Source: Marivirga aurantiaca (GTDB lineage: Bacteria > Bacteroidota > Bacteroidia > Cytophagales > Cyclobacteriaceae). Taken from it: DNA of 64,000 nucleotides. Position 1 is the stretch's first letter, and the number at the start of each line of letters is the position of its first letter. The DNA lies in the NCBI RefSeq assembly GCF_016679925.1, contig NZ_JAEQBW010000005.1:1-64000 (forward strand). Direction: 5' to 3'. The position numbers were made by a program, and so were the translations under genes. Positions 26,647 through 29,635 of the stretch are shown piece after piece. The notes beneath the pieces are model-generated. The model searched no databases. It had not been told where the DNA came from and saw only the letters and a program-made list of their open reading frames with translations.

Positions 26647-26899
26647 TATAATAAAATTTCTAAGCACCCTATAGAAATATGATTTGTCACTAATTTAACA
26701 AGAGTTAATACCTTACAAGGTGTAAAATATCAGGTTGTTTTTAAAATTAAGAAACTAACTAACTGTCTACAATTGTACCTCTCCTTATCCTTAAAAAAGA
26801 GCCACTAGTCGATTTTCCTAAGAGTTTTTCCAACCATCTGGCATGTTATTTGGTCTATAGAAGTAATTTTGTGTTAAATACTACTTAAAAAATACGGTT

Positions 26900-27127
26900 A
26901 TGGATAGGTATAGGATAAGTTTTAAGTGCAATAAAATCCCGGATCAATTGGATGGCTTAAAGGGTTTTAAAGTGACTGACTACTACGAGGGAAGAGCTTA
27001 CAATGGATTATTTGAAGTAAGTCCTAATTGGGGATATGGTCAGGAAAGTAAACTCATTTCTAAAGCTTTATTTGAAAAATATTTTGAATTAATAAGTGAA
27101 GAAAATTTAATTAAAAACTCCGCCTGA
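26900..27127 (+). CDS. Small hypothetical protein
   Basis: A 75-residue acidic-to-neutral soluble protein. I do not recognise a specific family. It reads like a compact beta-rich domain (YRISFKCNKIP, FKVTDYYEGRAYNGLFEVSPNWG) ending in a helix (KALFEKYFELISEENLI). Evidence for its reality is a TAATTTTG -7-like box at 26864-26871, which gives a leader of about 25 nt, and a strong terminator 29 bp after the stop. It is therefore probably a short monocistronic gene. Confidence 0.6.
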   Translation: MDRYRISFKCNKIPDQLDGLKGFKVTDYYEGRAYNGLFEVSPNWGYGQESKLISKALFEKYFELISEENLIKNSA

Positions 27128-27155
27128 AAAGACGGATTCATATTTATTTAAGTAC

Positions 27156-27186
27156 AAAAGGGCTGAGAAATTCAGCCCTTTTTATT
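27156..27186 (+). terminator. Intrinsic terminator of the small hypothetical gene
   Basis: A stem AAAGGGCTGA / TCAGCCCTTT with a five-base loop GAAAT, followed by a T-rich tail (TTTATTTTTATT). A clear plus-strand terminator. Confidence 0.8.
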
Positions 27187-27354
27187 TTTATTATGATACA
27201 ACCCTACACACAACCATTCTCCTCACACCAGAAGATTGATGCGGGTATTTTCCCAATTATGCAAAGGGCCACTTTAGATTGATAGGTACTACAGATTCAG
27301 TCAAACAGAATCTCGCAATTGATAATTCCTCTTTTAGAAAGGGAGTTCACCTCT

Positions 27355-27609
27355 TCAGCCTTTACTAATAACTCTTGAATAGCCGCTTTTGCTTTTAGAG
27401 TCTTTAATTTTCTTTTCAACTACCATGGCTTCTGTTTTTGAATCAAAAAGAATAGAGGTTTTCAATTTCCAGGGCTGACCTCTTTTATATTATACAAGAT
27501 TCAGTTAAGTGAAGAGTTCTGAAATCCTAACCGCTTCACCGGAGTTCAGGAATAACCAATGTAATATTGTCAATTTTAAGCGAATAGAGGATGCAGGCAT
27601 AATATTCAT
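27355..27609 (-). pseudogene. Decayed GIY-YIG nuclease gene (fourth unit)
   Basis: A degenerate copy of the nuclease gene found intact three times just to the right. On the minus strand, EYYACILYSLKIDN matches the intact KYYVYILYSVKIDK, and later QPWKLKTSILFDSKTEAMVVEKKIK matches closely. The frame is broken by a frameshift: in-frame stops occur after PELR and after LFT. It lies one repeat length (392 bp) from the first intact unit and still has the unit's terminator to its right. No tRNA-like sequence survives at its left end, so this is the oldest, most eroded end of the array. Confidence 0.75.
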
Positions 27610-27627
27610 CCTTTCTGAAAGAGTCTA

Positions 27628-27658
27628 AATAAAAAAAGCCATCTTTTCAGATGGCTTT
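27628..27658 (-). terminator. Terminator, unit A end
   Basis: A nine-bp stem AAAGCCATC / GATGGCTTT (27635-27643, 27650-27658) followed on the minus strand by a T-run. It lies between the tRNA-like sequence of unit A and the decayed nuclease gene. Confidence 0.72.
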
Positions 27659-27659
27659 G

Positions 27660-27738
27660 CTCCTCCTCTTGGGCTCGAACCAAGGACCCTTCCCGCTCAA
27701 GCGGGATCAGATGCCCTAACCAGCTGAGCTAAGGAAGC
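27660..27738 (-). pseudogene. tRNA-Asn-like sequence with replaced anticodon arm (copy A)
   Basis: 79 nt read on the minus strand. The D arm (GCTC-AGCTGGTTA-GGGC), T arm (CTTGG-TTCGAGC-CCAAG) and 3' acceptor AGGAGGA with discriminator G are those of the tRNA-Asn at 28836, apart from one D-stem base. The anticodon stem-loop is replaced by a hairpin TCCCGC-TTGA-GCGGGA, so there is no seven-base anticodon loop and it cannot decode. The 5' acceptor strand GCTTCCT pairs imperfectly with the 3' strand (one G-A mismatch, one G-T). The elbow-forming D and T arms are intact, so RNase P or RNase Z could still recognise it. Confidence 0.7.
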
Positions 27739-27741
27739 ACA

Positions 27742-28005
27742 TCATCCTTTCCAACCTTTATTAATAATACTTTCAATTGCCGTTCTACTTTTAAAGCTTT
27801 TGATTTTCCTCTCTACCACCATGGCTTCTGTTTTTGAAGCAAAGGGAATAGTGGTTTTCAACTCCCATGGCTGCCCCTTCTTAGACCATATTTTATTAAA
27901 AGAGGAGTTATGAAAGACCAACCTCTTCTCCGGAGTCCGGGAATAGCCAACGTAGTATTTGTCAATTTTAACCGAATAAAGGATATAGACGTAGTATTTA
28001 TCCAT
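27742..28005 (-). CDS. Small GIY-YIG endonuclease (copy A)
   Basis: An 87-residue stand-alone GIY-YIG nuclease domain of the UvrC-N/YhbQ-like group. YVYILYS (residues 5-11) and YYVGYS (17-22) form the GIY-YIG core strands. RTPEKRLVFHN supplies the conserved arginine on the catalytic helix, and KTEAMVVERKIK supplies the metal-binding glutamate. No DNA-binding domain is attached. It sits 15 bases after the terminator of the adjacent tRNA-like copy B, with no promoter of its own seen, and ends 3 bp before tRNA-like copy A. The protein is identical to copies B and C although the DNA differs silently. Confidence 0.85.
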   Translation of the reverse strand: MDKYYVYILYSVKIDKYYVGYSRTPEKRLVFHNSSFNKIWSKKGQPWELKTTIPFASKTEAMVVERKIKSFKSRTAIESIINKGWKG

Positions 28006-28019
28006 TCTGAAAAGACTTA

Positions 28020-28050
28020 AATAAAAAAAGCCATCTTTTCAGATGGCTTT
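28020..28050 (-). terminator. Terminator, unit B end
   Basis: Same nine-bp stem and T-run as in the other units (stem 28027-28050), between tRNA-like copy B and nuclease copy A. Confidence 0.72.
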
Positions 28051-28051
28051 G

Positions 28052-28130
28052 CTCCTCCTCTTGGGCTCGAACCAAGGACCCTTCCCGCTCAAGCGGGATC
28101 AGATGCTCTAACCAGCTGAGCTAAGGAAGC
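28052..28130 (-). pseudogene. tRNA-Asn-like sequence with replaced anticodon arm (copy B)
   Basis: 79 nt, differing from copy A only by having GAGC instead of GGGC in the D stem. The T arm and 3' acceptor strand match tRNA-Asn, and the anticodon arm is replaced by the TCCCGC-TTGA-GCGGGA hairpin. It cannot act as a decoding tRNA. Confidence 0.7.
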
Positions 28131-28133
28131 ACA

Positions 28134-28397
28134 TCATCCTTTCCAACCTTTATTAATAATACTTTCAATTGCCGTTCTACTTTTAAAGCTTTTGATTTTC
28201 CTCTCTACCACCATGGCTTCTGTTTTTGAAGCAAAGGGAATAGTGGTTTTCAACTCCCATGGCTGCCCCTTCTTAGACCATATTTTATTAAAAGAGGAGT
28301 TATGAAAGACCAACCTCTTCTCCGGAGTCCGAGAATAGCCAACGTAGTATTTGTCAATTTTAACCGAATAAAGGATATAGACGTAGTATTTATCCAT
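28134..28397 (-). CDS. Small GIY-YIG endonuclease (copy B)
   Basis: An 87-residue GIY-YIG nuclease identical in protein sequence to copies A and C. Compared with copy A it has one silent change (TCT for TCC at the serine of GYSR). It lies between tRNA-like copies C (upstream) and B (downstream) and begins 15 bases after the intervening terminator. Expression would need read-through from the tRNA-Asn promoter or a promoter I cannot see. Confidence 0.85.
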   Translation of the reverse strand: MDKYYVYILYSVKIDKYYVGYSRTPEKRLVFHNSSFNKIWSKKGQPWELKTTIPFASKTEAMVVERKIKSFKSRTAIESIINKGWKG

Positions 28398-28411
28398 TCT
28401 GAAAAGGCTTA

Positions 28412-28442
28412 AATAAAAAAAGCCATCTTTTCAGATGGCTTT
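28412..28442 (-). terminator. Terminator, unit C end
   Basis: Same nine-bp stem and T-run (stem 28419-28442), between tRNA-like copy C and nuclease copy B. Confidence 0.72.
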
Positions 28443-28443
28443 G

Positions 28444-28522
28444 CTCCTCCTCTTGGGCTCGAACCAAGGACCCTTCCCGCTCAAGCGGGATCAGATGCTC
28501 TAACCAGCTGAGCTAAGGAAGC
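28444..28522 (-). pseudogene. tRNA-Asn-like sequence with replaced anticodon arm (copy C)
   Basis: 79 nt, identical to copy B. It starts 3 bases after the stop codon of nuclease copy C, so the coding sequence abuts the tRNA-like fold. If processed like a tRNA, it would define the 3' end of the nuclease mRNA. Confidence 0.7.
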
Positions 28523-28525
28523 ACA

Positions 28526-28789
28526 TCATCCTTTCCAACCTTTATTAATAATACTTTCAATTGCCGTTCTACTTTTAAAGCTTTTAATTTTCCTCTCTAC
28601 CACCATGGCTTCTGTTTTTGAAGCAAAGGGAATAGTGGTTTTCAACTCCCATGGCTGCCCCTTCTTGGACCATATTTTATTAAAAGAGGAGTTATGAAAG
28701 ACCAACCTCTTCTCCGGAGTCCGAGAATAGCCAACGTAGTATTTGTCAATTTTAACCGAATAAAGGATATAGACGTAGTATTTATCCAT
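28526..28789 (-). CDS. Small GIY-YIG endonuclease (copy C, next to tRNA-Asn)
   Basis: An 87-residue GIY-YIG nuclease, protein identical to copies A and B. It carries two silent DNA differences from copy B (ATT for ATC in RKIKS; TCC for TCT in WSKK). It is the promoter-proximal copy: the order on the minus strand is tRNA-Asn, terminator, this gene, tRNA-like C. That three near-identical copies accumulate only silent changes suggests the protein is selected, or that the copies are kept uniform by conversion. Its target, perhaps the tRNA-Asn locus itself, is unknown. Confidence 0.86.
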   Translation of the reverse strand: MDKYYVYILYSVKIDKYYVGYSRTPEKRLVFHNSSFNKIWSKKGQPWELKTTIPFASKTEAMVVERKIKSFKSRTAIESIINKGWKG

Positions 28790-28803
28790 TCTGAAAAGGC
28801 TTA

Positions 28804-28834
28804 AATAAAAAAAGCCATCTTTTCAGATGGCTTT
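28804..28834 (-). terminator. Terminator of tRNA-Asn
   Basis: A nine-bp stem AAAGCCATC / GATGGCTTT (28811-28819, 28826-28834) followed on the minus strand by seven T. It starts one base after the tRNA 3' end and is the same structure as in the three repeat units. Confidence 0.78.
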
Positions 28835-28835
28835 G

Positions 28836-28909
28836 CTCCTCCTCTTGGGCTCGAACCAAGGACCCTCTGATTAACAGTCAGATGCTCTAACCAGCTGAGC
28901 TAAGGAGGA
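28836..28909 (-). tRNA. tRNA-Asn (anticodon GTT)
   Basis: A 74-nt canonical cloverleaf on the minus strand. The acceptor stem is TCCTCCT / AGGAGGA with discriminator G. The D arm is GCTC-AGCTGGTTA-GAGC, the anticodon arm TCTGA-CTGTTAA-TCAGA with anticodon GTT, the variable loop GGGTC, and the T arm CTTGG-TTCGAGC-CCAAG. CCA is not encoded. It has a consensus promoter 19 bp upstream and a terminator immediately downstream, and it is the intact head of the GIY-YIG array. Confidence 0.95.
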
Positions 28910-28927
28910 ATGTCCCTTTTGGGAATG

Positions 28928-28959
28928 CAAACATAGCAGTCCCTTTCATATTTTGCAAA
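28928..28959 (-). promoter_or_regulatory. Promoter of tRNA-Asn
   Basis: On the minus strand TTTG (28959-28956), 20 bases, TATGTTTG (28935-28928). This is a full match to the Bacteroidota pattern, placing the start point about 13-15 nt before the mature tRNA 5' end. It is the only good promoter found for the GIY-YIG array. Confidence 0.68.
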
Positions 28960-29048
28960 TACAATTTGAAAATATTTAAATATATTTTCGGCTAATCAAC
29001 TCATACTCTATTAATGCATTCACCTATCAAATGACCACAACTACTGAA

Positions 29049-29108
29049 TAATGACATAATGACTTGATTATAGGGAAAATCAGTCACTAAGTAGACATAA
29101 TGTCATTA
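29049..29108. repeat. Inverted repeat upstream of hsp20
   Basis: TAATGACAT (29049-29057) and its complement ATGTCATTA (29100-29108), 42 bp apart, with partly complementary sequence between (TGACTTGATT / AAATCAGTCA). It could be an operator or a fold in an upstream transcript. It ends about 85 bp before the heat-shock gene. Confidence 0.35.
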
Positions 29109-29194
29109 ATCGAGGGTGATTTTGAGCCATTTTCAAGAATGGTACAAAATTTACTATCCCTTTATAAAAATGTTAAACCTTAAATTTATCAGTT

Positions 29195-29635
29195 ATGACA
29201 CTTATAAAATATGATCAGGGATTACCCAATGTAGCAAACAGAAGCTTTTCTAATTTTTTAGATCGCTTTTTTAACGAATCCTTTGTTAATGCTAACAAAG
29301 AAATGGAAAGCTTCAATCCGCAAGTAGATGTTGCGGAGGGAAAAAAAGAATTCGAGCTTTCAGTTGCAGTGCCGGGAATGAAGAAGTCTGATTTCAACAT
29401 TGACATGTCAGATGGAAAAATAACTATTTCCGGAGAGAGAAAATTTGAGAATGAAAAGGATGGAAAGAACTATCACTCTGTAGAAACAAAATACGGAGCT
29501 TTCAGCAGAACATTCTACTTGCCGGATAACATTCTAGAGGATAAAGTTGAGGCAAGTTATCAGGATGGGATATTGAAAGTAATCATTCCAAAAGATGAGA
29601 AAAAAGAGCTCAAAAAAACCATCCAAATCAAATAA
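29195..29635 (+). CDS. Small heat-shock protein, Hsp20/alpha-crystallin family
   Basis: A 146-residue ATP-independent holdase chaperone of the cytoplasm. A short N-terminal arm (SNFLDRFFNESF) is followed by the alpha-crystallin domain, about 43-135. That domain contains PQVDVAEGKKEFELSVAVPGMKKSDFNID, ISGERKF, GAFSRTFYLPDNI and the signature ASYQDGILKVIIPK. The C-terminal tail KKTIQIK carries the I-x-I motif used for oligomer assembly. It is monocistronic with its own terminator and has an inverted repeat upstream that may be regulatory. Length and motifs are typical. Confidence 0.93.
   Translation: MTLIKYDQGLPNVANRSFSNFLDRFFNESFVNANKEMESFNPQVDVAEGKKEFELSVAVPGMKKSDFNIDMSDGKITISGERKFENEKDGKNYHSVETKYGAFSRTFYLPDNILEDKVEASYQDGILKVIIPKDEKKELKKTIQIK

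Follow-up and report, generated by a model that had tools for sequence, protein, structure and literature searches.

Short GIY-YIG nuclease genes stand directly behind transfer RNA (tRNA) genes in many Bacteroidota, each accompanied by a palindrome and commonly by a partial copy of the tRNA. We met them in a window of 64,000 nucleotides from Marivirga aurantiaca (RefSeq assembly GCF_016679925.1, contig NZ_JAEQBW010000005.1, positions 1 to 64,000), where an intact tRNA-Asn gene is followed by a tandem array of such units. These arrays are probably the work of a family of minimal selfish, homing-like parasites of tRNA genes, comprising a nuclease and its cognate palindrome. An earlier reading of the window from its letters alone (the sequence-only reading) had suggested an undescribed tRNA-linked element. 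We too found no description of tRNA-anchored GIY-YIG arrays in the open-access literature, a coverage that leaves out subscription papers and preprints, and overall the earlier interpretation is partly supported.

The array behind tRNA-Asn in Marivirga aurantiaca

All features of the array lie on the minus strand. The intact tRNA-Asn(GTT) (28835..28909; called by ARAGORN, Rfam tRNA score 67.4 bits) is followed by three units of 392 bp and then a decayed fourth gene, an arrangement that had been described from the sequence and that the coordinates, open reading frames (ORFs) and unit alignment bear out. Each intact unit contains a terminator-like hairpin, a GIY-YIG nuclease gene of 87 amino acids and, 3 bp beyond its stop codon as had also been noted, a tRNA-Asn-like sequence. 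In unit 1 these lie at 28811..28834 (hairpin plus T-run, behind the tRNA-Asn), 28526..28789 and 28443..28522; in unit 2 at 28419..28442, 28134..28397 and 28051..28130; and in unit 3 at 28027..28050, 27742..28005 and 27659..27738. A fourth terminator and a GIY-YIG gene carrying several stop codons occupy about 27350..27658, with 78% identity to unit 1 over 311 alignment columns. The nuclease protein is identical in the three units, and their 392 positions differ at two places between units 1 and 2, three between units 2 and 3, and five between units 1 and 3. Together with the identity of the fourth copy, this means that divergence in the window rises with distance from the tRNA-Asn. Since the units differ at only 2-5 positions, and since the arrangement recurs in 193 distinct arrays, among them those of related species, the array is beyond chance. 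Nor is it likely to be a single unit multiplied in assembly, because the fourth copy is divergent and similar arrays occur in one-contig genomes (G105, for example, has 14 full units).

The tRNA-like sequences, described earlier as tRNA-Asn-like, are copies of tRNA-Asn, but they are not intact tRNAs. They equal the tRNA-Asn apart from the region of the acceptor-stem 5' end and the anticodon arm, with one additional change in unit 3. The anticodon arm has been swapped for the palindrome TCCCGCTTGAGCGGGA, located at 28475..28490 in unit 1, 28083..28098 in unit 2 and 27691..27706 in unit 3. The sequence-only reading thus had the parts of the unit correct, but missed the palindrome and its link to the nuclease clade. 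Replacement of the arm accounts for the ARAGORN call of these copies as tRNA-Gly(CCC) and for their reduced Rfam tRNA scores of 30.5, 30.5 and 26.1 bits. In the whole genome the exact palindrome is present only at these three sites, with three further sites at one mismatch. A search with an anticodon-arm pattern returned a single tRNA-Asn match per genome in all ten Marivirga genomes, that of the window included.

Beyond the three nuclease genes the window array holds no ORF of at least 50 amino acids, and no integrase gene. None of the 16 Rfam matches at E up to 1 in 26800-29200 is a group I or group II intron; the sub-threshold matches there (Phe_leader and others) were taken as chance. No plasmid record covers 80% of the array by blastn, and among the matches listed (20 of 140) all resemble tRNA matches. 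The gene diverging from the tRNA-Asn (29195..29635, plus strand), which we take from its sequence to be Hsp20-like, was used as the neighbor by which the orthologous locus was found in relatives.

Judged by its sequence and its structural model, the window protein belongs to the GIY-YIG superfamily and resembles UPF0213 and SLX1. Its only Pfam match is GIY-YIG (E = 1.6e-10, 41.6 bits against a cut-off of 22.6, for the unit 3 protein), and the nearest solved relatives of the family profile are UPF0213 proteins (1zg2 and 1ywl), followed by SLX1. The AlphaFold model has a predicted local distance difference test score (pLDDT) of 94.1, and its ten best Foldseek matches are all UPF0213 and SLX1, the best at E = 1.1e-3 and none at or below 1e-3. 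Eight residues (Y7, S11, Y18, G20, R28, H32, E65 and K69) are invariant among 19 family sequences, and they include the tyrosine, arginine and glutamate that are catalytic in the superfamily. The arginine and glutamate of GIY-YIG enzymes are described in PMC2988022. E. coli YhbQ and B. subtilis YazA are placed in the Slx1 family, and Slx1-Slx4 is stated to cut branched DNA (PMC7017083, in excerpt). A structure-specific nuclease of this kind would suit a stem-loop target. In other collections, PADLOC gave only marginal PDC-S14 matches (3 and 1 of the 19 members), NCBIfam a group I intron endonuclease match in five of the 19 (best E = 7.2e-5) and PHROGs homing endonuclease families in one or two of them. 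The window protein itself had no match in NCBIfam or PHROGs.

Linkage to tRNA genes and specificity across Bacteroidota

Relatives were gathered by protein score, ignoring tRNA context. At the level of the order, 17 of 29 near and far genomes had a match at E = 1e-3, and within the genus all ten Marivirga genomes did so at E = 1e-6. At E = 1e-18 there were matches in 63 of the 98 genomes of the family, and in 124 of 296 genomes of Bacteroidota, from 75 of 140 genera; from these two sets the loci are those of the top matches listed. A dedicated set for the tRNA-Val clade comprised 80 named genome contigs out of 161 relatives, the 80 all reading as Bacteroidota by their titles. The main set holds 193 distinct arrays that score at least 60 against the profile. 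After dropping 19 as too short, 174 had at least 250 bp of upstream sequence. A tRNA gene was counted as linked if it lay on the same strand within 450 bp upstream.

The sequence-only reading had proposed looking for copies beside tRNA genes in related genomes, and that is where they are found. A same-strand upstream tRNA was called by ARAGORN in 157 of the 174 evaluable arrays (among these, a few could be palindrome copies); in 139 it lies no more than 100 bp away, and the median gap is 42 bp. A second, phylum-wide set of 27 loci, 24 of them evaluable, gave 22 with a median gap of 49 bp. Ordinary GIY-YIG genes had an upstream tRNA in none of 13 cases in Marivirga and none of 30 across the phylum, one locus being common to both controls. 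The linked tRNAs are of many isotypes (Val 70, Met 21, Asp 12, Asn 11, Arg 9, Ala 8, Pro 7 and others), the number for Val being inflated by inclusion of the dedicated set. When 55 tRNA-Val loci are sorted by common flanking ORFs, 22 groups result, and only 93 of 1485 pairs share such an ORF, so it is the tRNA and not its neighborhood that the loci have in common and that would be the target. Tandem arrays make up 64 of the 193, with a median unit spacing of 363 bp outside the window. The largest, in the one-contig genome G105, has its 14 full units plus a truncated one behind tRNA-Asp. Viral contigs were searched with the tRNA-Val clade alone, and held no relative of its nuclease.

In a tree built from 86 columns of 190 nucleases, many of whose forks are unresolved, the clades follow tRNA isotype, with many switches, and the palindrome follows the clade rather than the isotype. 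Isotype requires 38 changes on this tree, compared with 81.7 when shuffled (lowest of 300 shuffles, 77). For the family survey alone the values are 30 and 64.7 (lowest 58), and with Val removed from that survey 27 and 51.6 (lowest 45). The motif of the palindrome stem requires only 4 changes against 18.6 when shuffled (lowest 16), using classes that were set after the stems had been seen and that take in 110 of the 152 stems. If the motifs are shuffled within isotypes the value is 12.7 (lowest 8), and none of 300 shuffles came as low as 4. The unclassed stems comprise 28 lacking an isotype or arm label and 14 outside every class; with these counted as a class of their own, the fifth, the motif requires 21 changes, compared with 44.7 when shuffled (lowest 39). 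In one clade of ten members, which occurs at Met, Asp, His and Phe tRNAs, all seven classed stems are GSTGA; in other clades at the same four isotypes none of 18 is. Because the motif tracks the clade and not the isotype, nuclease and palindrome would seem to coevolve, largely independently of the tRNA that is hit.

Copied tRNA parts, array decay and occupancy

Of the 160 arrays that have a tRNA, 132 carry a partial copy of it behind the first nuclease gene, as found by an exact 13-nt seed. This holds for all 58 tandem arrays and for 74 of the 102 single ones. The copied part starts at tRNA position 43-53 in 81 arrays, at position 54 or later in 43, and earlier in eight. Copies of the first type typically follow immediately on a palindrome standing in for the anticodon arm, and in those starting at 54 or later the palindrome is usually in the T-arm. 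The stop codon of the nuclease is often the T8-A9-G10 of the tRNA itself. Among 81 copies of the anticodon-arm type only 12 can still be called as tRNA, and by a strict count 2 retain the 5' acceptor strand, so that the tRNA fold is mostly lost; a looser count gives 12 of 67 and 8 of 67. The copies in the window rank among the best preserved. The duplicated stretch often takes in the terminator. A target-site duplication of fixed length was considered and rejected. In single units the far end of the copied stretch varies, from within the tRNA to past the terminator, so no such length can be assigned.

Units that lack a nuclease gene are also found. In the one-contig genome G006 (locus L336, C1:2835500-2839500) tRNA-Arg(TCT) is followed by 11 tandem units of ~130 bp, each made up of a tRNA-Arg-like sequence, palindrome and terminator. 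ARAGORN calls six of these tRNA-Cys. The window genome has one nuclease-free palindrome unit, likewise behind tRNA-Arg(TCT) (L347, G000:C11, near 884907). Elsewhere, T-loop and anticodon-arm palindromes are stacked within one distal tRNA-like copy (L204) or occur in successive copies (L225), which suggests successive invasions by two types of element.

Tandem arrays are polar. The tRNA-proximal gene is intact in all of 71 arrays and a distal one is decayed in 26, the reverse being found in none (p = 3e-8). The first genes of the arrays appear to be under purifying selection, with a ratio of nonsynonymous to synonymous substitution (dN/dS) below 0.5 in 58 of 58 pairs and a median of 0.14, dS being saturated in many of these pairs.

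The Hsp20/tRNA-Asn locus differs in occupancy between the ten Marivirga genomes. It is occupied in four, by what the tree places as two separate nuclease lineages. The window has three genes and the decayed one, G005 has two genes of which the second is broken, G009 has one broken gene, and G008 has one gene of the different lineage with a palindrome in the T-arm. In the other six genomes no gene lies directly downstream on that strand; two of these six (G002 and G003) have GIY-YIG sequence farther away on the opposite strand. Gene number at a single locus therefore varies between genomes of the genus; the sequence-only reading had proposed asking whether it varies between strains. The first half of the G009 gene matches unit 1 of G005 and its second half matches unit 2, which amounts to loss of a gene by recombination.

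Thirty-three arrays have no called upstream tRNA. In 11 of these unrelated DNA cuts the tRNA short on its 5' side, and nine of the 11 start at positions 26-32, in the 5' strand of the anticodon stem (six Val, two Met, one Asp). Of the other two, one starts at 54, in a Pro lineage of the T-arm type, and one at 8. The rest of the 33 include two matches to palindrome copies, five arrays at contig edges and 15 that have no remnant, many of these being short of sequence. Palindrome and break are thus found at the same arm, which is our strongest pointer to the site at which the nuclease might act. The tRNA-Asn heading the two-unit array at L123 is 5'-truncated, starting at T8, and so looks non-functional. 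Four of the 15 arrays that have no remnant (L047, L086 [Ser], L168 [Leu] and L179 [Arg]) are mirror images, in which a palindrome-bearing, 3'-truncated tRNA copy is followed by the nuclease gene and then by an intact tRNA downstream.

A proposed mechanism, its rivals and known systems

We propose that the element would consist of a UPF0213/SLX1-like GIY-YIG gene of ~80-100 amino acids and the short palindrome of that nuclease lineage, with each lineage mainly targeting one tRNA isotype. Its common form would be an intact tRNA, a terminator, the nuclease gene, a remnant of the tRNA 5' half, the palindrome at the anticodon-arm site or in the T-arm, the tRNA 3' part again and often a terminator. 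The structure-specific nuclease would open the tRNA gene at the stem-loop whose place the palindrome takes. As the junctions suggest, repair from a copy that bears the element would then insert the tRNA 3' half together with the terminator, the nuclease gene and the palindrome, and the tRNA would be rebuilt upstream of the insert. The palindrome copies, being no longer tRNA, would presumably go uncut, and the rebuilt tRNA would be open to repeated hits. New units would thus enter beside the tRNA while older ones shift downstream and decay, which would be the cause of the polarity that we observe. Arrays shrink too, by homologous recombination, of which the G009 gene provides one case. Nuclease-free units, whose arrays are observed, would presumably be served in trans. 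The sequence-only reading had also supposed that units are added stepwise with the tRNA restored. This agrees with the polarity of decay, the nested divergence of the units and the junctions at tRNA arms.

A number of observations weigh against this scheme. An upstream tRNA is missing in 17 of the 174 arrays: ten of these have a 5'-truncated tRNA, four are the mirror images and three (L067, L165 and L172) lack any upstream remnant. The mirror images mean that the polarity is not universal, and decay of distal genes could stem from selection on the promoter-proximal copy alone. Most of the orphan loci keep a tRNA 3' copy on their right side, so they may be rearranged loci and not new insertions. 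Fidelity to isotype is partial, with 38 changes where the minimum for 19 labels is 18. The arm, anticodon or T, is weakly tied to the clade (22 changes against 33.2), and in the family survey the 16 changes, against 21.2, are equaled by the lowest shuffle. To these may be added the post hoc motif classes and the saturation of dS. One in six arrays scoring 40-60 (L045, whose reading frame holds a stop) also has an upstream tRNA. In each of the ten Marivirga genomes TCCCGA..TCGGGA palindromes are commoner than their reversed control, at places away from tRNA genes too (46 sites against one in the window genome), and such a palindrome is therefore not exclusive to tRNA loci. The sample has one genome per species with related species at full weight, and the tree is built on few columns, with many of its forks open. 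Lastly, ordinary recombination can grow or shrink tandem repeats of 300-400 bp, and it surely contributes to the size of the arrays.

The main rival is hairpin-ended transposition, which we consider unlikely. Here the nuclease would act on stem-loops in the manner of the transposases of repetitive extragenic palindromes (REPs), termed RAYTs (REP-associated tyrosine transposases), or of the insertion sequences IS200/IS605. The anticodon arm would be the left-end hairpin and the palindrome the right-end one, with a single-strand intermediate and no need for repair of a double-strand break. The coevolution of palindrome and nuclease clade, the nine truncated copies whose left ends lie at the anticodon stem, the abutment of the palindrome on the copied tRNA 3' part, the amplification of nuclease-free palindrome units, and a sister GIY-YIG clade sitting among dispersed CGTC-type palindromes in Marivirga would all fit. 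Against this, GIY-YIG enzymes are not known to rejoin DNA, and most orphan loci have on their right side a tRNA 3' copy, which would not come along with a unit whose end is the palindrome.

Less probable still is passive hitch-hiking, whereby a GIY-YIG gene with an unrelated housekeeping role landed behind tRNAs and was multiplied by unequal recombination between the duplicated halves. The repeats do recombine, as the comparison of G009 with G005 indicates, and purifying selection would suit a housekeeping role equally well. Yet it leaves unexplained the capture of many isotypes by isotype-biased clades, the match of nuclease and palindrome, the arm-specific junctions, the presence and absence among ten congeners, and the nuclease-free arrays. 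An RNA-level system, in which the GIY-YIG protein would be a tRNA-specific ribonuclease toxin with palindrome-bearing tRNA-like RNA as its decoy or antidote, is very improbable, for while isotype fits the nuclease clade and the palindromes lie in the anticodon arm or T-arm where a tRNA nuclease could cut, the copies have mostly lost the tRNA fold (which led us to reject an RNA decoy as the principal explanation), the nearest folds are UPF0213 and DNA structure nucleases, the duplication often spans the terminator and PADLOC offers only its marginal matches. The small number of callable copies likewise speaks against the RNA-processing role that the sequence-only reading had allowed the tRNA-like part.

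Among known systems, the free-standing GIY-YIG homing endonucleases appear, by analogy, nearest in logic to the parasite that we propose. The Seg proteins of phage T4 include SegB, encoded between tRNA-Arg and tRNA-Ile and targeting the tRNA intergenic region (PMC2988022, in the part available), and so share with the arrays a stand-alone GIY-YIG gene adjoining tRNA genes. In contrast to these, the arrays encode a catalytic domain of 80-100 amino acids alone, lie in bacterial chromosomes and have isotype-biased clades, a cognate palindrome, a duplicated half tRNA, tandem units and an intact tRNA left adjoining. As with homing endonucleases, site specificity tracks nuclease lineage, seen as isotype clustering with many switches, and occupied and empty alleles of the tRNA-Asn locus both exist in Marivirga. 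Unlike them, the carrier is not protected by loss of its target: the ARAGORN-called tRNA remains in 157 of 174 arrays, and loss of the arm is confined to the palindrome copies. A group I intron with a homing endonuclease gene would require the interrupted tRNA to be rebuilt by splicing, whereas here the intact tRNA exists as DNA.

Tyrosine-integrase islands use a tRNA gene as an address and restore it by means of a carried or duplicated tRNA part. The arrays share with such islands the address and the duplicated part, but the window units have no integrase, measure ~350-400 bp, duplicate the tRNA from an arm and grow in tandem. For the REP/RAYT (TnpA-REP) systems, the features compared that go beyond the openings of the two papers cited here are general background. 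As in those systems the palindrome is specific to the lineage of its enzyme (4 changes against 18.6, with post hoc classes); in place of a Y1/HUH tyrosine transposase the enzyme is GIY-YIG, the units are tRNA-anchored and tandem, and a tRNA arm has given way to the palindrome. Both kinds of system couple short palindromes with an enzyme and include enzyme-free units (PMC8266576 and PMC3116915, opening sections). UPF0213 (YhbQ-YazA) and SLX1 are closest in solved sequences and folds (1zg2, 1ywl and SLX1), but the window gene sits within a repeated tRNA-anchored unit, and its 87 amino acids are a GIY-YIG domain only, lacking the zinc-finger domain that the excerpted source describes for Slx1.

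If the parasite reading is correct, a common short 'hypothetical GIY-YIG' gene of Bacteroidota, found in 124 of 296 genomes at E = 1e-18, would not be a housekeeping gene. It would be the engine of phylum-wide elements of ~350 bp on tRNA genes, some of them single-copy, with the cell surviving. The arrays would offer a simple system for recognition of one tRNA gene by a nuclease that has no separate DNA-binding domain, for coevolution of palindrome and nuclease, and for the polar growth of tandem arrays. The elements also account for false tRNA calls in these genomes (tRNA-Gly, SeC [selenocysteine] and Cys).

It is possible, and we suggest it tentatively, that GIY-YIG enzymes of the UPF0213/SLX1 type form a second class of palindrome-mobilizing enzymes beside the HUH RAYTs. 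One branch would act on tRNA stem-loops, building self-extending arrays behind essential tRNA genes throughout the phylum, and a sister branch would be the missing partner of the CGTC REPs. For these a 2013 survey, in the portion available to us, reports no dedicated transposase. The sister branch would thus be a testable candidate for the unknown mobilizer of the CGTC REPs. Across the phylum just 3 of 30 loci have the strict CGTC motif, and one of the three is in the window's own genome, so the link remains a lead. Around the tRNA-linked arrays there is one CGTC motif in 364 kb, and near the other ordinary GIY-YIG genes of Marivirga CGTC-REP ends are found in one case of five. The GGYVYIVSN clade of Marivirga, whose genes are not tRNA-linked (L357, L359, L360, L362-L365 and L003), has CGTC-REP ends within 800 bp in eight of eight genes. 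The ends are CGTC-tagged palindromes, CGTCATTCC and GGAATGACG. Among those listed for the ten genomes, 15 of 82 CGTC palindromes lie within ~1 kb of these eight genes.

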